This document shows positions 1 to 10,418 of a DNA stretch of 46,306 nt, one piece after another. Positions within the stretch are counted from its first letter, which is position 1; every line of letters starts with the position of its first letter. The notes under the pieces are model-generated. The model did not search any database. It was not told where the DNA came from and saw nothing but the letters and a program-made list of their open reading frames with translations. The translations under genes and the position numbers were made by a program. The DNA is from Actinomycetota bacterium (GTDB lineage: Bacteria; Actinomycetota; Acidimicrobiia; Acidimicrobiales; VFJN01), in NCBI GenBank assembly GCA_009886035.1, contig VFJN01000049.1, positions 1-46,306 on the forward strand, given 5' to 3'.

Positions 1-112
1 CAAACGTGGGAGGGCCGGTCCGGCCGATCTCCCCAGGTAGACCGCACAGATGGATGGCCACCCCTGAGGCGCAAGCCGAGGGACAGAACCCCGCCTACAA
101 GCCGACTCATCT
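1..112 (+). ncRNA. rnpB: RNase P RNA, 3' portion (5' part lies outside the window)
   Basis: Matches the bacterial type A RNase P RNA 3' end: 'aggtagaccgcac..agatggatggcc..gggacagaaccccgcctacaagccgactcatct'. Followed by a terminator-like hairpin. Confidence 0.85.
79..109 (+). repeat. 31-bp direct repeat, left copy (attL-like)
   Basis: Identical to 2594-2624. Confidence 0.9.
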
Positions 113-116
113 CACC

Positions 117-158
117 GGGGTCTGGCCAGGATGAAAGTCCTGGTCAGGCCCCACTTTT
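117..158 (+). terminator. Rho-independent-like terminator after left rnpB copy
   Basis: Stem ggggtCTGGCCAGGA-tgaaag-TCCTGGTCAGgcccc followed by acttttc. Confidence 0.6.
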
Positions 159-206
159 CGCAGGACAGAACTCCACGATCCGCTGATCAGCAGGAGTCTT
201 GTCCCC

Positions 207-890
207 ATGAAGTCCACCACCGCCGACCGGAATACGGCACTCGCCGTTGAGTTCCTCGCCTGGCAGCAGAAGCGAAATCGGGCCTACAACACCCTCGTCG
301 TCTACACCGACGTACTGAACAAACTCCTGGCGTGGATCGGCGATACCCCGCTGGCGGTGGTGTCGACGACAACGTTGGAGCGGTTCGTCGAGCGGCCGAG
401 GGCACGTCGACGACCAGCCCATGCCCGAGGCCAGGTGATCGAGGGCGCACCGGCGACCCGGCGGCGAGACATCACCGTCATCCGCTCCTTCTACAAGTAC
501 CTAACCGAGCGCGGCTTGGTGGCGACCAATCCGGCCCTCCTACTAATCCCGCAGCAAGTCCACAACATCGCGCCCAAGGCCATCGACGACGCCCTCTGGC
601 GGGCTGTGTGGTGCCATAGGAGCCTCGACAGCACCGAACGGACGGTCCTGGCGCTCGGGTGCTTCTGCGGCCTTCGTCGTCAGGAACTCGTCGACCTCAC
701 CGCAAGCCACTTCGATCTGGGCGGCCATCATCTGGTGGAGTTCAAGCGGAAGGGAGGCAACAACGCATCGTTCCCCTATGGGTCAGCGATCCGCCTCATC
801 GCTGAACGACTCCCCCAACTCGTACCAGAGTATGATCCCGTCCGACGGAACCGGCGACAGAGGTGCATCAGTGACAACCGAACTCGTTGA
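207..890 (+). pseudogene. Tyrosine recombinase/integrase, truncated (N-terminal SAM-like domain and box I arginine only)
   Basis: N-terminal core-binding domain pattern and 'LGCFCGLRRQELVDL' box I; no HxxR box or catalytic Tyr before the stop. Confidence 0.75.
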
Positions 891-1563
891 GGCACTTAGG
901 GGACCAGCGAGTTTCGCTTGGGACATCGCCCGTACGAACTTCAGGGAACTCGTCAAGAAGAACGATGGTCGGCGAGCCTCCAAGCAGTTGACCTTCAGAG
1001 ATGTCGCACCCACCTACGGGGCCGTGTACGGCTCATTCGTGGCGTGTGCCAACGTGCTGCCCGAGGTCGAGGCGATTCTCGGGGTGCCGAAGGACATGGT
1101 GTTTCAGACGCTCGCGGAGGTTGTGACCTCCAACCCGATCACCTGGCTCAACATCGAGATTCCTCCCCGCCCCAATCTGGCGATCGACGCGTGTCGTTTC
1201 TCCTACCAGGCGTTGTGGGGTGCAACTTCCAAGGATCAGACCAGCGGCAACCTAAACCTGACAGAGGCGTGCGTGCCGATCGACGGCTCGGTAGGAACCA
1301 CCGTTGTGCTGGGTGGCGTCCTCGTTTGGCCAAACGTTCTGATCGCCGTCCGGGACTTCGCGGGCACCCTCGGCACCGAGCAGCAAATCAAACGACTCGC
1401 CGCAGAACAATCAGCCAGGTCAGCCGTCGCCCCCGGTCCCCCGACTTCCGAATCGACTTCGAACTTGGCTGACCAGATTCGAGAACTCGGCAAGTTGCGC
1501 GACGAGGGCCTCATCAGTGAGGCGGAGTTCGCTCAACAGAAGGCTCGCATCCTCGCCTCGTAG
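871..1563 (+). CDS. SHOCT domain-containing protein of unknown function
   Basis: C-terminus 'LADQIRELGKLRDEGLISEAEFAQQKARIL' is a SHOCT motif. Start uncertain (GTG 871, ATG 832 or ATG 778). Confidence 0.7.
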   Translation: MTTELVEALRGPASFAWDIARTNFRELVKKNDGRRASKQLTFRDVAPTYGAVYGSFVACANVLPEVEAILGVPKDMVFQTLAEVVTSNPITWLNIEIPPRPNLAIDACRFSYQALWGATSKDQTSGNLNLTEACVPIDGSVGTTVVLGGVLVWPNVLIAVRDFAGTLGTEQQIKRLAAEQSARSAVAPGPPTSESTSNLADQIRELGKLRDEGLISEAEFAQQKARILAS

Positions 1564-1581
1564 CCCTCTAGTGAGGAGTCA

Positions 1582-2022
1582 CTACTTGGACTTCCACGGC
1601 TTCCGCTCGCCCGCCAGGGGGTTGGCCATCATGGCGTTCTGCATGATGGCGGAGATGACCCACGGGTGATTGGCGTTGTAGGTCGCCATGTAGTGCCGAT
1701 ACCAGTCGGACGGAATCGAAAGACCCCGACGCGCTTTCGTCGTTGGCGCACCCGCACGCTTCGAACGGTCCATCGCACTTCTGGCAAGCACAACGACGAC
1801 GTTGTTCAGCATCGCCATAAGGGGCCGATCAGCCGGTCCCAGCGACGTGACGTTGGCCGTGAGCATCTCGCGATCATCCGTGTCGAGGGGCTGGCCCTGG
1901 CGCTCCGCCTCGACGCATACGGCCTCGATCATCCACTGTGCTGACTCGTCGGCTGTCATCGCTTCTCCTGTGGTTCCGTCGGATACTGCCGTCCACTGCC
2001 GCCAGGAGTGCATCGCGTCCAC
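1582..2022 (-). CDS. Hypothetical protein
   Basis: 146-aa ORF convergent to the SHOCT gene; no recognised family. Confidence 0.5.
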   Translation of the reverse strand: MDAMHSWRQWTAVSDGTTGEAMTADESAQWMIEAVCVEAERQGQPLDTDDREMLTANVTSLGPADRPLMAMLNNVVVVLARSAMDRSKRAGAPTTKARRGLSIPSDWYRHYMATYNANHPWVISAIMQNAMMANPLAGERKPWKSK

Positions 2023-2424
2023 GACCGCACCCCCCTAACTAACGCCTGCGCCGCCGTTTGGCCAACGCAGACATCGTGGCCGTCTCGGCCACTCTACGAG
2101 ATGGGGAGCGACACCTGCGGCGAGCCGTTCCGGACAACTTGTCCGAGGCTGTTGTTACCTTCGGCGCCGCGTCGGCTTGCAACACCGAAGGAGGTGCCCG
2201 GTGCCCGAAAGTGAGGTGCCCGGCACCCAATCGAATCCGATCCTGGACATTGCGTCCTTCGCCGCATCATTCGTCCTGTCGCTCTCTCGGACGAGTGTTC
2301 TGTACCCCCGCTGGGTTATCTTCCACAGTGTTCTGTCCCGCGAATCGGAGCCTCGGATCACCAATCATGGTGTTGTTCTGACCCATTCCATCTGACCCAC
2401 TGAGCGGCCCGCTGCACGGGTTTT

Positions 2425-2630
2425 CGCCCGTTGCGAAGCGCACCAGCAGTCGGAGCGATCCGGCTGGCTTGGCAACCCCCACCAGGAGCAAGGCCAAACA
2501 GAGGGCAGGGCTGCCCGTCCGCCCCTCGCAAGGGGGACCCTCAGGTAGGCCGCATAGATGGATGGTCACCGAACTGGATACCCGTAAGGGTCCAGGGACA
2601 GAACCCCGCCTACAAGCCGACTCACCGTCA
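2425..2630 (+). pseudogene. 5'-truncated RNase P RNA fragment (second rnpB 3' end)
   Basis: 'gcgaagcgcaccagcag..aacccccaccaggagcaaggccaaac..aggtaggccgcatagatggatggtc..gggacagaaccccgcctacaagccgactca' matches conserved rnpB blocks. The 5' core 'gaggaaagtccgggctcc' is absent upstream. Confidence 0.75.
2594..2624 (+). repeat. 31-bp direct repeat, right copy (attR-like)
   Basis: Identical to 79-109. Confidence 0.9.
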
Positions 2631-2798
2631 CCACCAGCCTGACGAGGGAAAACGCCTTGAGCACCTCGCCCTGGGATACGCCGAGGCACAGGAAGCTCCG
2701 CCAACTACCCACTCAGGTGTCCCGAGCCCTCCGGCAGATCCTAAGGTCAACCAGGGTCGGCTCGTCGCCCCCCGTGTTCTTCCTACCGCCTTCGAAAG

Positions 2799-3977
2799 AT
2801 GACCATGACCTTGTTCCCCGACTTCGCGATCGCCTGTGGCGAGGAGGGCTCGGATCCGACCGTCCTGCACGATGGCGCGGTCGTACGCGTGGACGAGTTC
2901 GCGGCGAGCGGCCATTTCGATCATCAAGACAATGACCTGGCGGCGGTACGCGACCTCGGGGTGAAGATCTGGCGCTACGGCATGCCCTGGCGCCTCACCG
3001 AACCTGAACCCGGCCGCTACGACTGGACGCTTTGGGATCACGCCCTTGAGTCGTGCTCCCGCCATGGGTTGGTGCCCGTGATCGATCTCTGCCACTTCGG
3101 GCTCCCCGACCACTACCAGGGGTTCTGCGACTCGGCCTGGGTAGAAGGCTTTGGCCGCTACGTCGATGCCTTCGTCGCTCGCTATCCCGACCCACTGTTT
3201 TTCACGCCGGTGAACGAGCCGATGATCACCGCGATGTCATCCGGGTTCCTCGGGGCCTGGAACGACCGGCGGACCTCGCGAGCCGACTACATGACCGCCC
3301 TGGCCCATGTGACCCTGGCCAACCTCGAGGCACTCGCCCGGATCAACGCCGATCGGCCCGCATGGTGGATCGGCGCCGAAGGCTTTGGCTGCCACATCGC
3401 GGTGACCCCCGACGACGAGCCCGCCGCCGAACAGGCACGGGCCCTCCAACAGCTCGTGTGGGACCTGCACTTTGGCGTAACCCCGCGGCCCGAGGTCGCC
3501 GACGTGGATCTCGTCGACCCGACGATCCTCGGGCGCATCGCCAGCCTCGCCGGTCCCACCGAACGGGTCGTGGCCGGGCATGACTTCTACCCCGTGAGCG
3601 TCACGGTCCACGGCCACCGGGCCGACCCGCTCACCATCGACGAACGCATCGCGGCCTACGAACGAGAAGCCACCGCCTGGTATGCGCGCTATCGACGCCC
3701 GTTCTGGGTGGCCGAGACCTCCAACCTCGGACTCGATGTCGCCGACGGTCCGGTCTGGCTCGACAAACTCGTGGCCGCGCTCGACCGCCTGCGCGCCAAC
3801 GGCCTCCCCGTGCACGGCCTGTGCTGGTACAGCCGGGGCGACCAGTACGACTGGCACACCATGTTGACCCGACCGGTCGGCGAGATCACCGAGGTCGGCC
3901 TCTTCGACGCCAGCCGCCGGGCCCGTCCCGTCGCCACCGCTTACGCCCGGCTGGCCGCCGAACGCTCAGCAGACTGA
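2799..3977 (+). CDS. Glycoside hydrolase family 1-like protein
   Basis: GH1-like fold signatures 'WRYGMPWRLTEPEPGRYDWTLWDHALESC' and 'FTPVNEP'. Confidence 0.7.
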   Translation: MTMTLFPDFAIACGEEGSDPTVLHDGAVVRVDEFAASGHFDHQDNDLAAVRDLGVKIWRYGMPWRLTEPEPGRYDWTLWDHALESCSRHGLVPVIDLCHFGLPDHYQGFCDSAWVEGFGRYVDAFVARYPDPLFFTPVNEPMITAMSSGFLGAWNDRRTSRADYMTALAHVTLANLEALARINADRPAWWIGAEGFGCHIAVTPDDEPAAEQARALQQLVWDLHFGVTPRPEVADVDLVDPTILGRIASLAGPTERVVAGHDFYPVSVTVHGHRADPLTIDERIAAYEREATAWYARYRRPFWVAETSNLGLDVADGPVWLDKLVAALDRLRANGLPVHGLCWYSRGDQYDWHTMLTRPVGEITEVGLFDASRRARPVATAYARLAAERSAD

Positions 3978-4126
3978 ATCCGCCGCGCTCGGATGCGGAT
4001 GATGACCAGCGTTGGCGGACGTCCTCAGCACGGCGCCAAACCGTCGACGGTCAGCGCGAGCCCTCGGGAGGACGGGTGGTAGGTGACCCCAAGATTCACA
4101 AATTCGTAGCGCCACCAAGAGGCCGC

Positions 4127-4169
4127 TCTGCTTCTCCCTCGCTTATGAGGAGAGCGAGGAAGAAGCAGA
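4127..4169. terminator. Long hairpin between convergent genes (possible bidirectional terminator)
   Basis: TCTGCTTCTCCCTCGCT / AGCGAGGAAGAAGCAGA, 17-bp stem with one mismatch, 9-nt loop. Confidence 0.5.
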
Positions 4170-4315
4170 AACGACGTGCCCTGAGGGTTGCCGATGACGC
4201 ACCCAGCCGCCAGAGTCGTTCGGCCTAATTTGGGGGTGGAGGGACCGGCCGCCGTTGAGACCGGCCTCGTGCGCCCCGTCCCCCCTTTGCCTAGGCGGGT
4301 GGGCCCCTGCGCTGA

Positions 4316-4891
4316 TCAGCGACCTTCCAAATGGGCCGTATCGTTGAACCCCTGGAGCGACACTCGGGGCGAGGTGGCCACCCTCGTAATGGAGGCCGGA
4401 GCCACGAACGATCGCCACGCCACATCGTCGCCCACCCCCAACGCCCAGGCCATGGCCGCCTTGATGGGCGATACGTGGGTGACCACCACCACATCCGAGC
4501 CCGCCGCCGACGCCGCGAGATCTTCCGCCGCCGCTCGCACCCGTACCCCTAGTTGGGCCAGGGATTCCCCTCCCCCGGGACGAAAGTTGATGTCGGCCTG
4601 CCAGGTGGCCCATACGGCCGGGGGAACCTCGGCGAGTGGGGTGCCATCGAGCGTGCCGTAATCCAACTCGATCCAGCGCTCATCGATCTCCACCGGAAGG
4701 CCAAAGACCGCCGCCGTCTCCTGCGCCCGTCGGAGAGGGCTCGCCACCACCCGGGCCACACCGGGAAGCGCCACCGCCAGGGCCGCAGCCTGGCGTTGCC
4801 CCAGGGCATCGAGGCCCGGATCGATCCGGCGCCCCTGCAAAAGCCCCGACGCGTTGGCCTCGGTGCGACCGTGACGAAGGATGATCAGCAT
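4316..4891 (-). CDS. Histidine phosphatase family protein
   Basis: 'MLIILRHGRTEANASGLLQGRR' RHG motif. Confidence 0.9.
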   Translation of the reverse strand: MLIILRHGRTEANASGLLQGRRIDPGLDALGQRQAAALAVALPGVARVVASPLRRAQETAAVFGLPVEIDERWIELDYGTLDGTPLAEVPPAVWATWQADINFRPGGGESLAQLGVRVRAAAEDLAASAAGSDVVVVTHVSPIKAAMAWALGVGDDVAWRSFVAPASITRVATSPRVSLQGFNDTAHLEGR

Positions 4892-4898
4892 GGGTCCT

Positions 4899-5390
4899 TC
4901 ACCACGGTGGAACGATGTCTCGGCCAACCTGACCGGAGCGCAGAAACACCCGCCGGCGCGCCGGTTCCTCCAGACGGAACCGGTGGTACCCCCAGGCACA
5001 GGCCGCCAACCCCACCAATTCAAACATCCCGTTCAGAGCCAACCCCCGGCCCCCCTCCGCCAGGGAAGCGGTCGACCACGCGCCGCCGAAGAACGGCCAC
5101 CAGAACGCCTGCGTGTCGGCCCAGGCCCCGTCGAGCACCAGATGAAGCAGCATCCCAATCGGCAGACCCAGCCAGCGCCGCTGTCGCCGCCGCTGGCCCC
5201 TCGCGCCCAGCATGACCACCACCAGCACGATGGCCGCCCCACTCAGGCTATGAGCCAGGCGCGGCCCCCCCAGAGGAACGTCGGCGAGGGGCACGATGCT
5301 GCCGAGGGCCACCAACCGATAGTCCACCGACGGGCTCCCAAAGACCGCCCACACAATGAGAATCGACGGGCCGACGAACCAGAACAGCAC
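4899..5390 (-). CDS. Membrane-bound metal-dependent hydrolase-like protein
   Basis: Hydrophobic segments with 'LADVPLGGPRLAHSLSGA' and 'GMLLHLVLDGAW'. GTG start overlaps the upstream gene stop region. Confidence 0.6.
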   Translation of the reverse strand: MLFWFVGPSILIVWAVFGSPSVDYRLVALGSIVPLADVPLGGPRLAHSLSGAAIVLVVVMLGARGQRRRQRRWLGLPIGMLLHLVLDGAWADTQAFWWPFFGGAWSTASLAEGGRGLALNGMFELVGLAACAWGYHRFRLEEPARRRVFLRSGQVGRDIVPPW

Positions 5391-5391
5391 G

Positions 5392-6105
5392 TCAGCGCGC
5401 CAGGAGGCGACCGCACTCCTCGCAGTGGGCCGTTTCATCAGGGGCAAGTTTCTTCAGGCGATCCACCTCGACCGCCGAGAGCCCGAGGTGACAACCGCCG
5501 CATGACCTCCCCACCAGTCGGGCGATCCCGATGCCGCCACCTTGGGTGCGCAGCGTCTCGTATTCCGTGATCAACTCCGCATCCACACCGCCGGATAGTT
5601 CAGCCCTCTCCGAGCGAAGCTGCCCCAGCTCGCGGTCGATGCTCACCTCGGCCTCAGCGATGGTGGCCCGCAACAACTCCGCCGCCTCATCACCGGCCAC
5701 CTGCGCATCGGCGAGACGAACCAGATCGGCGTCCAGCGGCTCGATCTGCTCCATGAGTTCGAGTTCCTGGTCTTCCAGTTGACTGATCCGCCGTTGGAGC
5801 GCCGCGATCTCCTCCTGCATCGCCTGCAACTCACGGGGATTGGTGACCGATCCGCTGTAGAGCGCCTTGTCGTGCTGGGCGGCCTTGTCGACCAGCGTGG
5901 CGATTCCATCCTCGAGGCGCTGCTGATCTCGGCCCAGGTCATGGCGGCGCCCCTCCACCTCCGCCGCCTCGCGCTCGATGGTCCCCAACGTCACCATCAC
6001 CTTGTCGAGTTCACCCCGGGCCGGCAGGGCAATTCGCCGGTGCACCGCCTGATCGATCTGGGTGTCGTGCTCCTGCACCGACAAGAGAATGTCCCAGCGA
6101 CTCAT
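5392..6105 (-). CDS. Zinc ribbon coiled-coil protein (C4-type, CT398-like)
   Basis: N-terminal coiled coil; 'SCGGCHLGLSAVEVDRLKKL..HCEECGRLL' zinc ribbon. Confidence 0.85.
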   Translation of the reverse strand: MSRWDILLSVQEHDTQIDQAVHRRIALPARGELDKVMVTLGTIEREAAEVEGRRHDLGRDQQRLEDGIATLVDKAAQHDKALYSGSVTNPRELQAMQEEIAALQRRISQLEDQELELMEQIEPLDADLVRLADAQVAGDEAAELLRATIAEAEVSIDRELGQLRSERAELSGGVDAELITEYETLRTQGGGIGIARLVGRSCGGCHLGLSAVEVDRLKKLAPDETAHCEECGRLLAR

Positions 6106-6146
6106 CGGTGCGGCTCGTTCATCACCCGCCATCCTCACACATGGCG

Positions 6147-8324
6147 CTACTCAATCTGTTCGGGGGGAAGCGGATCGCTCGTGGGAGGCGTGTCGGGGTC
6201 GTCGGGAGGGATGGTGCTCGAAGGAGGAGAGGTAGCCGGATCGGTGGGGATCGTGGGCAGACCGGGGCGAGCAGGCGGCCGGGACACACCGGTGCTGTAG
6301 CCCCCGCCACTGGCGTCGAACTGGCTATCCACCCGCAGATAGCGGCTCGATCGCGTGAACGGGGCGGCGTCGACAAAATCTTTCTCCGGGAGACCTTCGT
6401 GCCACGCCCGCATGTAGCGACCCCAGATCTCAGCCGGGTACGAACCCCCGGTGATACCAGTCCCCCCGATGCGCACCTCGAAGTTGTCCGCCGGTGAGCC
6501 GATCCACACCGCGGTAGCCATGTACGGGGTGAACCCCACAAACCAGCCGTTGCCAGCATTTTGAGCGGTCCCGGTTTTCCCCGCCGCGTGCTGGCCCGAG
6601 ATGCGCGCTTTCGTGCCGGTGCCGCCCTGCACATTTTTTTCGAGCACATCAGCCGCCAAACGGGCCGTCTGGGCGGAGGAGGCCCGCCGAGGATTGGGCG
6701 CGTGGGCCAGCACCACCTTGCCCGCCGGATCCTCTACCCGATCCACAAAGTACGGTGCGTTGTACATCCCATCGGCCGCGATGGCCGCCACCGCCGCCGC
6801 CATCTCAATCGGGTGCACCCCCTCGGTGCCCAGCGGTGTGGAGACGAAGCCCTCCAAGGGGGTGGTGATGCCCATCCGGCGGGCCTGCTCAACCACGTTG
6901 TCGATCCCCACGATCTGCCCCAGTCGGACGAAGGCACAGTTCGACGACCGCAGGGTTTGCGAGGTGATCGTGCCGCTCCCACCCCCGCTGTTGCCGAAGT
7001 TCTCCACCTTGTAGGGGTTGGGAACCATCCCGGGAATGTCCTTGAACGTGCAGGCGCCGCTGCCATTCACACTGTCGTTGGGGCTGTAGCCGTGCTCGAG
7101 AAGGGCCATGAGCACAAAGATCTTGAACGTTGAGCCACCCGAGCGCAGCCCCTGGGTGGCCACATCAAACTTGTCCTGATCAAAACCCGCACCACCCACC
7201 AGCGCCCGCACCGCCCCCGTACCCGGCTCCACCGATACCACCGCCGCCGTGGCGTTACGCGGGACCCCGGTTTCCGGATTGGGGGCGATCGGCACCACTC
7301 CCACCGGCGTGCCGGCCGGGGCCACCGCCTCCAACACCTCGTTGCGGGCGGTCAAGGCCAGCAACTGCGCCCGCGGCTCCAAAGTGGTGTAGATCTTCAA
7401 CCCGCCTCGAAATACCTGGTACTCCCGCTCGGCGGGGGTGGCGCCGAGTTGCGGGTCATCCAACAACTGCTGCTTGACCTTTTCGGCGAAGTAACCCTCG
7501 GTCGTCGGAAGGACCTGGTTGATCACCGTCGGCAGTGGTGTGGCCCCCAGATAGATCTGGTCGACGTCGGTCAAGCGGCCCACGGCCACCAGGCGACCCA
7601 GCGCAACCGACCGCCGGGCCTTGGCGTCCTCGGGATGGCGGATCGGATCGAAAGCGCTGGGATTAGCGATCATCCCCGCCAAGAGCGCCGACTGCCCGAT
7701 GTCGAGGTCGGCAACACCGACGCCAAAGTAGGTTTCCGCCCCGGCCTGCAACCCGTAGGCACCGTTGCCCAGATACACGGTGTTGAGGTACCGCTCGAGA
7801 ATCTCCTCCTTCGGCATGAGCTTTTCCAGCCTCCGAGCCAGCACGGCTTCGCGCGCTTTCCGGCCGATCGTCTGCTCGTTGCCATACTCCGACTTGATCA
7901 CCTGCTGGGTGATCGTCGAACCGCCCTGCACAACCCCTCCCGAGTCCACATCCCGCATGAAGGCCCGAAGGGTGGACCGGAGGTTCACCCCTGCATGGGC
8001 GAAGAACCCGGCATCTTCCACGGCGAGCACGGCCGTGATCGTGTCGGCCGGAATGGTGCTCAGCGCCACGGGCTGACGGTCTACTTCGGCCTGAAAGGTG
8101 GTGAGGAGGGAACCGTCGGAGGCGTAGACGTATGAGCGCTGATCCAGGGGGCTCAGCGAGATGTCCCTCGCCACCGACGAGGAGGCGTAACTCAGGTATT
8201 TGGCAGCCGGCAGCAGCGCCACAGCTACGCAGGCGAGCCCGAGGCCCGCCAGCGTAGTTATCAGAATGAAGCGGAGGAAAGGTCGCACAGGGAAGGTGAG
8301 GGTGGCCATCGGCGGATAAGCCAT
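6147..8324 (-). CDS. Penicillin-binding protein 1A-type transglycosylase/transpeptidase
   Basis: 'AVEDAGFFAHAGV', 'GGSTITQQVIK', 'SGGSTFKIFV', 'SSNCAF' and 'AAGKTGTAQN' motifs. Confidence 0.95.
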   Translation of the reverse strand: MAYPPMATLTFPVRPFLRFILITTLAGLGLACVAVALLPAAKYLSYASSSVARDISLSPLDQRSYVYASDGSLLTTFQAEVDRQPVALSTIPADTITAVLAVEDAGFFAHAGVNLRSTLRAFMRDVDSGGVVQGGSTITQQVIKSEYGNEQTIGRKAREAVLARRLEKLMPKEEILERYLNTVYLGNGAYGLQAGAETYFGVGVADLDIGQSALLAGMIANPSAFDPIRHPEDAKARRSVALGRLVAVGRLTDVDQIYLGATPLPTVINQVLPTTEGYFAEKVKQQLLDDPQLGATPAEREYQVFRGGLKIYTTLEPRAQLLALTARNEVLEAVAPAGTPVGVVPIAPNPETGVPRNATAAVVSVEPGTGAVRALVGGAGFDQDKFDVATQGLRSGGSTFKIFVLMALLEHGYSPNDSVNGSGACTFKDIPGMVPNPYKVENFGNSGGGSGTITSQTLRSSNCAFVRLGQIVGIDNVVEQARRMGITTPLEGFVSTPLGTEGVHPIEMAAAVAAIAADGMYNAPYFVDRVEDPAGKVVLAHAPNPRRASSAQTARLAADVLEKNVQGGTGTKARISGQHAAGKTGTAQNAGNGWFVGFTPYMATAVWIGSPADNFEVRIGGTGITGGSYPAEIWGRYMRAWHEGLPEKDFVDAAPFTRSSRYLRVDSQFDASGGGYSTGVSRPPARPGLPTIPTDPATSPPSSTIPPDDPDTPPTSDPLPPEQIE

Positions 8325-8443
8325 CGTACCTGTGCCCCCGCCCCCATCCCCGTCACCATCGGGCGATGGCGGGCGGCCATCAACGACGAGAGATCCTGCG
8401 GTGGACCGTCCCGGGTTTCTCCGGCCCCCGGTATCGTGTCCCG

Positions 8444-9379
8444 GTGGCCCACAATCGACGATTCCGCTTCGGCATTCAACTCAGCACCGCCTCCTCGGGG
8501 AGCGAATGGGCGGACGCGGCCCGCAAGGCCGAAGACCTCGGCTACTCCACCGTGTTCATGCCCGATCACTTCGGCGACCAGTTAGCCCCGGTGCCCGCGC
8601 TCATGGCCGCAGCTGACGCCACCACCGAACTTCGAATCGGTGCCTTGGTGTTCGACAACGACTACAAGCACCCCGTGGTGCTGGCCAAGGAACTCGCCAC
8701 CATGGACGTCCTCTCGGGCGGTCGGCTCGAAGTGGGCCTCGGGGCCGGATGGATGAAAAGCGACTACGACCAGGCCGGAATGGCCTACGACGCCCCCGGG
8801 GTTCGGGTTTCGCGCCTGGATGAAGGCATCGCCGTGGTCAAAGGCTGCTTTGCCCCCGGCCCCTTTTCCTTTCACGGCGAGCACTACACCATCACCGACT
8901 ACGACGGCTTCCCCAAGCCCACCCAAACACCCCCGCCGCTGATCATCGGGGGTGGCGCCCGACGCGTGCTGTCTATCGCCGCTCGCGAAGCGCAGATCGT
9001 GGGAATCAACCCGTCGATCCACAGCGGCGCCGTCGACGCCGCCGCGGCCCAGAACGGCGCATCGGAGGAAACCGACAAGAAGATCGGCTGGGTGAAGGAA
9101 GCCGCCGGCGACCGCTACGCCGACCTCGAGATCAACCTCCTCCAGTTCGCCGCCATCGTCACCGACGACCGAGAGGGCACCGCCGAGATCATGGCGCCCC
9201 TCTTTGGCCTCCCGGTCTCCGAACTCCACACCTACCCGCATGCGTGCATCGGAACCGTGGACGAGATCGTGGCCTCCCTCCAAGCCCGCCGGGACCGCTG
9301 GGATGCCTCCTACATCGTGTTCCAAGGCGACACGATGGAGGCGATGGCCCCCGTCGTGGCCAAACTTCGCGGCACCTGA
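8444..9379 (+). CDS. LLM class F420-dependent oxidoreductase
   Basis: 'FGIQLSTASSG..WADAARKAEDLGYSTVFMPDHFGDQ' and 'LSGGRLEVGLGAGW'. GTG start inferred. Confidence 0.85.
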   Translation: MAHNRRFRFGIQLSTASSGSEWADAARKAEDLGYSTVFMPDHFGDQLAPVPALMAAADATTELRIGALVFDNDYKHPVVLAKELATMDVLSGGRLEVGLGAGWMKSDYDQAGMAYDAPGVRVSRLDEGIAVVKGCFAPGPFSFHGEHYTITDYDGFPKPTQTPPPLIIGGGARRVLSIAAREAQIVGINPSIHSGAVDAAAAQNGASEETDKKIGWVKEAAGDRYADLEINLLQFAAIVTDDREGTAEIMAPLFGLPVSELHTYPHACIGTVDEIVASLQARRDRWDASYIVFQGDTMEAMAPVVAKLRGT

Positions 9380-9386
9380 ACCGGCA

Positions 9387-10418
9387 ATGGCCCCCGGCAC
9401 CACCGTGGATCTCGCCTTCGCCGGGGCCGGGTGGATTGCCGCCGTCCACGGTTACGCGGCGCGCCAGGTGCCGGGCCTGCAGATCACCAAGGTCGCATCC
9501 CGCGACCCTGTCCACGCGGCGGCGGCGGCCGAACGGATGGGGGCCGAGCCCTGCACCTACGATGACCTCCCCGCCGAGGCCCACGGGGTGGTGGTGTGCA
9601 CTCCACCGGCCCTGCACCTCGACCATGCTCTGCACGCCATCGAGCGGGGGGCGGGAGTGCTCATCGAAAAGCCGTTGTGCACCACCCTCGCCGACGCCGA
9701 TGTGCTGGTGGCGGCGGCGGCGTCCGGCGCCCAGATCGCCTATGGGGAAAACCTGCTCCACGCCCCCATCGTGCGCCTCGCCCTGAGCCACACCAACCAG
9801 TTGCAGGCCATCGATCTGGTGGAGGTGCGGGCCCTCCAAGGGCGCCCTTCCTGGGGCGATTTCCTCACCGAGGGCTGGGGCGGCGGGGTGCTCTTCGACC
9901 TCGGCGTACACCCGCTCGCCGTGGCCCTCGCACTGGCCGCCCCGGCGGTACCGGTGGAGATACGAGCCACCCTCGTCGGCGCAGCAGACCATCCGGTAGA
10001 CGAGCATGCCGAGGTGACAATCCACTTCGACTCGGGCCTGCTTGCCCGGGTCACCGCCAGTTGGCGCCACGGCGATTCCCCCCTCTGGGATGCCCAGATA
10101 TCCGCCCCCGATGGGGTGGTGCGGATGGAATTACTCCCCACCCGGCTCCTTGAGCGCAACGGCGTGGAAGTGCCGCTGCCCGGGATCGGTCAGGGCGTAC
10201 CGGCCCAACTCGAAGAATTCGGCTACCTCCCGCAGATCGAATCCTTCGCCCTCGACCTCCAACAGCACCAAGCACCATCACTCGGCGCCGCCTTCGGACG
10301 CTCGGTTCTCGACCTCGTCTGTGCTGCCTACACCTCCGCCGGTCAGCACAGCGCATGGGTCGACCTCCCCTTCGGCGGCTCACGACAACAGACCCCGCTA
10401 CAACTCTGGAAGGGGTGA
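9387..10418 (+). CDS. Gfo/Idh/MocA family oxidoreductase
   Basis: 'AFAGAGWIAAVHGYAARQVPGLQITKVASRDP' Rossmann motif; 'GVLIEKPLCTTLADADVL' (EKP). Confidence 0.9.
   Translation: MAPGTTVDLAFAGAGWIAAVHGYAARQVPGLQITKVASRDPVHAAAAAERMGAEPCTYDDLPAEAHGVVVCTPPALHLDHALHAIERGAGVLIEKPLCTTLADADVLVAAAASGAQIAYGENLLHAPIVRLALSHTNQLQAIDLVEVRALQGRPSWGDFLTEGWGGGVLFDLGVHPLAVALALAAPAVPVEIRATLVGAADHPVDEHAEVTIHFDSGLLARVTASWRHGDSPLWDAQISAPDGVVRMELLPTRLLERNGVEVPLPGIGQGVPAQLEEFGYLPQIESFALDLQQHQAPSLGAAFGRSVLDLVCAAYTSAGQHSAWVDLPFGGSRQQTPLQLWKG

Follow-up and report, generated by a model that had tools for sequence, protein, structure and literature searches.

The stretch of DNA analyzed here (the window; 46,306 nt) is the whole of contig C118, taken from a genome of 203 contigs, and its base 1 is the contig end. 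The contig starts within rnpB, the gene for RNase P RNA, an essential and nearly universal molecule. The 3' end of the host rnpB, referred to as the left copy, lies at positions 1-113 of the forward strand, and the 5' part of the gene was found on contig C165. The terminal 109 bases of C165 match window 1-109 exactly, and C165 stops at window base 109. A first-pass annotation of the window had suggested extending the contig leftward to look for a full rnpB and running the Rfam models, and both checks gave a positive result. A complete RNase P RNA gene was detected at C165:10427-10769 (RF00010, 190.6 bits, above the cut-off), and the gene joined from C165 and the window is a normal, complete RNase P RNA. 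When the window was searched alone, RF00010 matched positions 1-113 (26.3 bits, E 1e-5) with its 5' side cut off because the contig begins inside rnpB. At the gathering threshold Rfam gave no match in the window alone, as the left copy and a second, right copy described below are both partial. Neither a tRNA nor a tmRNA gene was found in the window.

The 3' half of the left copy is identical to that of rnpB in the congener G001. The native P1 helix has 14 bp, pairing GACGGTGAGTCGGC with GCCGACTCACCGTC, and 9 of the 14 pairs are kept in the left copy, since the five terminal bases on the 3' strand moved with displaced host DNA to 2625-2629. The left copy had been proposed as the functional rnpB end. 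The overlap that completes the gene and the identity to G001 support this, and the left copy is the functional rnpB.

The insert behind the host rnpB

The first-pass annotation had reported an exact 31-bp block shared by 79-109 and 2594-2624. We found the same direct repeat, with a spacing of 2515; by our own arithmetic, the expected number of 31-bp exact repeats arising by chance in 46 kb is of the order of 1e-10 to 1e-9. A further pair of blocks, 31-62 and 2539-2570, is 88% identical. Positions 79-109 form the attL core, which is the last part of rnpB, and 2594-2624 form the attR core, both on the forward strand. Four genomes of the genus were then compared. In the congener G003, contig C104 carries an empty site, in which the end of rnpB joins the sequence of window 2625-2682 directly, and its rnpB part is 97.7% identical to the left copy. 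In G001, rnpB continues with CCGTCACC, as does the window from 2625 onward, and the forward-strand stretch 2625-2682 is thus displaced host DNA. A direct repeat with one copy at the 3' end of an RNA gene and a single-core empty site in a relative, which the first-pass annotation had suggested looking for, were both found. These results indicate that 110-2624 is inserted DNA and the left copy the host gene, and the 2,515-bp segment between the cores is an insert.

The break between C165 and the window lies at the exact point where attL departs from attB. This suggests that a second continuation, from an empty allele or from a different element in the same place, was present among the reads during de Bruijn assembly; the right junction has no contig break, and this reading so remains only suggestive. 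An assembly or binning artefact, by which the first 2.6 kb of the window would join sequence of unrelated organisms, was also considered. The MAG breaks exactly at the core, with C165 ending at window 109, and the right copy is phylogenetically foreign, as such a join would produce. However, the contig runs unbroken over the right junction into synteny with G003 and G001 at about 95%, and a break at the point of divergence between attL and attB is expected if both alleles or another element were in the reads. The pattern also recurs elsewhere, including in the one-contig genome G350. An artefact is thus highly improbable.

A hairpin at 117-152 (forward strand) follows the left rnpB end. It has a 16-bp stem with a folding energy of -33.5 kcal/mol and a z-score of -7.2, and no shuffled sequence reached so low a value. 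This element-borne hairpin is a probable terminator. A terminator had been proposed at 117-158; the strong hairpin stands, but a simple terminator scan did not list it, because only four T's follow the stem (CTTTTC).

The open reading frame at 207-890 (forward strand) encodes a truncated tyrosine recombinase of the XerC/D type, assigned to the phrog_1 integrases. It begins 98 bp past the left core, close to where the first-pass annotation had placed a recombinase. It carries the core-binding domain Phage_int_SAM_1 of Pfam and matches a PHROG integrase profile at 2.7e-17. The XerD model TIGR02225 is covered only at positions 8-173 of 290, and the alignment of the frame with XerC/D-type proteins takes in the Arg-I and Lys boxes and ends after them. 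In this alignment the HxxR, His/Trp and Tyr boxes were absent, and no remnant of the C-terminal part was found downstream in any frame. The integrase next to the core is therefore a relic lacking its catalytic C-terminus, which the earlier proposal had not foreseen, and the insert is therefore a remnant. The segment 110-2624 would no longer be able to excise by means of its own integrase. Searches for relatives of the window integrase gave two weak matches in Oscillospiraceae genome contigs and two weak plasmid matches, none in viral contigs, and none other than itself in the 395 genomes of the class at 1e-12.

Two cargo frames follow. The first, at 871-1563 (forward strand), ends in a C-terminal SHOCT domain (Pfam, 1e-8); its frame is open from 778, and the GTG at 871 is the likely start. 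The profiles phrog_2700 and phrog_888 match its C-terminus only, and the frame had no match in phage records. The second, at 1582-2022 on the reverse strand, encodes a hypothetical protein of 146 aa that matched no family above the cut-off among Pfam, TIGR and PHROG profiles. Apart from the integrase relic, the open reading frames of 110-2624 include no transfer gene and none of the packaging or capsid genes that mark a phage satellite or prophage.

The foreign rnpB sequence in the right copy

The right copy is on the same strand as the left, as the first-pass annotation had stated. Its homology to rnpB starts at 2437 rather than at 2425 and covers only the 3' ~190 nt of the gene. Its RF00010 score on C118 is weak because only this part is present. 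The right copy shares ~75% identity with the genome's own rnpB, but its identity to rnpB in a different family within the order reaches 83%. In a tree of rnpB 3' halves, the left copy fell within its family and the right copy fell outside it, and the tree singled out no donor family. The hairpins of the right copy still fold, though they are no more stable than shuffled sequence. The right copy may thus come from a gene that was still working and not from long-decayed DNA. These results indicate that 2437-2593 (forward strand), directly upstream of the right core, is the rnpB 3' half of another lineage, carried in by the insert. The first-pass annotation had regarded the right copy as att-derived or displaced. 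This applies to its last 31 bp, which are att-derived, but the ~157 nt before them are foreign and not displaced host sequence.

We also considered whether the right copy could be the displaced host 3' half, with the 3' half of the left copy brought in by the element and a crossover near the AGCGCACCAGC block at 2436. The homology of the right copy does start sharply at this conserved AGCGCACCAGC block. However, the left 3' half has the identity to G001 and the 97.7% identity to the empty site of G003 given above, and it is the right copy that falls outside the family. The chance that this arrangement is correct is close to nil. Gene restoration of the kind found in tRNA islands, with the right copy as the displaced half, is contradicted by the congeners G001 and G003.

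Among the other rnpB islands, second copies reach only some 30-55 bp in length, and an rnpB-like stretch of ~157 nt upstream of the core was seen in no other island examined. For a simple att site, such a stretch beside the right core would not be expected. Most likely, an element would have gained it in a previous host, through recombination or imprecise excision. A single crossover of the RecA type within the shared stretch, between the host rnpB and a foreign DNA circle that bore an rnpB 3' half, with the integrase relic as an incidental passenger, would give the same topology as integrase insertion, and the ~190 nt of rnpB-like sequence in the insert, the last 31 bases of which are identical, would suit it. 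However, 31 bp of identity amid surroundings that are 75% identical would be little for RecA to act on, integrases of other genomes use a core at these same breakpoints, and the integrase frame is in its standard place. We consider the RecA crossover improbable. A broader idea is that elements here pick up rnpB 3' halves and move them between families, so that integration or recombination can yield chimeric RNase P RNAs. This is a long shot at present; if rnpB 3' halves were carried between families, integrases would be driving the exchange of a portion of an essential ribozyme.

Elements and integrases at rnpB in other genomes

The right copy was used as a query against 395 genomes of the class, mostly fragmented, and rnpB was matched broadly. 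We re-searched 24 genomes, which were picked for showing two matches and so give no frequency. Short second copies of the rnpB 3' end were present among them. On the same strand and contig as rnpB, the second core lay behind the gene by 8.2 kb in the one-contig genome G350, 14.0 kb in G204, 7.7 kb in G380, 0.8 kb in G374 and 10.2 kb in G201, and in these five genomes the cores were identical over 29-56 bp. In G004, a prophage-like region follows rnpB, and another contig carries a copy of the core, with genes syntenic to those of the window downstream of it. The cores of G334 and G167 were also on other contigs. Contig overlaps or unclear cases (G247, G160, G397, contig C57 of G380, G123 and G261) were not counted as islands. 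In eight genomes an integrase frame, intact or broken, has its start or its end no more than about 150 nt away from the rnpB end, and RF00010 confirmed rnpB at twelve of these loci. As a control, 26 loci were chosen by rnpB similarity alone; an integrase lay at most 1.3 kb downstream in 4 of the 26 and upstream in none. The island of G201 holds terminase and portal genes. The rnpB core was also found on three viral contigs, and in two of these it adjoins an integrase and the remainder of rnpB is absent, as expected of an attP. These results indicate that temperate phages and small phage-like islands attach recurrently at the rnpB 3' end in this class. The first-pass annotation had called rnpB an uncommon target. 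Within the class the site is used repeatedly, although to our knowledge rnpB is not among the integration targets usually listed.

Several individual loci were also recorded. The island of G350 (L115, G350:C1, 563-8722; 8.2 kb) encodes an intact integrase, a helix-turn-helix protein, a phage capsid protein and a DUF3467 protein, and it looks like a small capsid-carrying phage satellite. In G001, about 8.9 kb of different DNA lies behind rnpB (L057, G001:C12:12000-25000, about 741-9653). This stretch opens with a C-terminal integrase fragment in opposite orientation, and it lacks the GH1 glycosidase gene that the window has at 2799-3977. The IMG/VR contig L137 has an rnpB core at 5535-5556, with no integrase recognized by motif in the stretch examined. 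Locus L125 (G123:C26) has two cores resembling the rnpB 3' end about 1.5 kb apart (384-420 and 1941-1975); both match the rnpB end of G123 itself poorly, and they possibly represent stacked elements or a contaminating contig.

The integrase of G350 was next used as a query against the class genomes. Its closest matches were beside rnpB in G201, G038, G334, G167, G144, G380, G001 and G021; the close matches in G180 and G370 were exceptions, and the more distant matches checked were not beside rnpB. In the integrase tree, the label "next to rnpB", which for two viral contigs was given from the core alone, required 4 changes versus 9.9 in shuffles, and none of 500 shuffles was as low. More distant integrases, those of G004 and G394, are likewise beside rnpB, and the site has therefore been adopted more than once. 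In G499, from another class of the phylum, a 59% identical integrase with one internal stop is also beside rnpB. In G625 (L210, G625:C1), an integrase that is 52% related to those found beside rnpB, with one internal stop, adjoins a tRNA gene; the G350-type subfamily thus appears to switch between tRNA and rnpB targets.

The first-pass annotation had suggested searching for integrases of the window's subfamily next to rnpB elsewhere. The search led to the G350-type clade, but to no close relative of the window integrase in the 395 class genomes. The window's genome gave no match to the G350 integrase at 1e-35. The XerC/D-like frame of the window falls outside the G350-type clade, and its orientation is opposite to that of most rnpB-associated integrases. 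With the frame off the clade and lacking a close relative in the class, its specificity for rnpB is inferred from its position, which counts against the integrase-based origin of the insert.

Origin of the insert and comparison with known systems

Taken together, these results make it very probable that window 110-2624 is what remains, in decayed form, of a site-specific integrative element, which entered the rnpB 3' end through a core of ~31 bp, and that it belongs to a wider pattern. The first-pass annotation had described an island integrated at the 3' end of an RNA gene, and the duplicated core, the empty site of G003 and the integrase relic bear this out. Of the two outcomes that it had listed as refuting this, neither was observed, as the Rfam model matches the joined rnpB and a congener has an empty-site allele. 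A tyrosine recombinase would have joined the attP core of the element to the identical core at the rnpB end. The sequence of the host rnpB would have stayed unchanged as far as GACTCA (window 109), with the element-borne hairpin added behind it, while the host DNA formerly behind rnpB would have been pushed to 2625. The truncated frame presumably descends from the enzyme that performed the integration, and the ~157 nt of foreign rnpB may have been acquired in the earlier host proposed above. The wider pattern, of elements attaching repeatedly at the rnpB 3' end, probably extends over this class and includes at least one case in a second class of the phylum; many of the elements have integrases of a single clade.

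The rnpB 3' end appears to serve one main integrase clade together with other integrase types, for elements ranging from a 2.5-kb relic to a prophage. It may provide a new kind of attB, with its integrase set, for use in bacteria that are poorly served by genetic tools, and a test case for why integrases favour the conserved 3' ends of structural RNAs. Our literature search found no report of an att site at rnpB or RNase P RNA; subscription papers were mostly outside the search, which makes this weak evidence of absence, and we therefore make no claim of first description. In the TIGER/Islander announcement (PMC12424338), sites fall into three kinds, tRNA/tmRNA, coding and intergenic, and rnpB is not named in the text. 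Surveys recognizing only tRNA and tmRNA genes would presumably label rnpB sites intergenic and overlook such islands.

In tRNA-dependent lysogeny, phages carry the RNA gene that they disrupt (PMC10865867), and they share with the window's insert the combination of an RNA-gene target and RNA-gene sequence of their own. Unlike the phages described there, the insert carries the rnpB 3' half only and the resident gene is essentially intact, and therefore no complementation is indicated. Phage satellites (PICI-like, capsid-carrying) and prophages resemble two of the other rnpB islands, of 8-10 kb, which pair an integrase with a capsid gene (G350) or with terminase and portal genes (G201), and the prophage-like region at rnpB in G004 resembles a prophage; the window's insert, in contrast, is without such genes. 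A further parallel is with the islands and prophages that tyrosine recombinases place in the 3' ends of tRNA and tmRNA genes (Islander/TIGER; PMC12424338). As in those, the core repeats the 3' end of an RNA gene, the gene is left nearly intact, an integrase adjoins the core, and a relative has an empty site. Unlike those, the target is rnpB, P1 falls from 14 to 9 pairs and is not fully restored, and the insert holds a foreign rnpB 3' half and a truncated integrase. The insert at rnpB combines an ordinary mechanism with an unusual target, at an attachment site that is recurrent and apparently little noticed.
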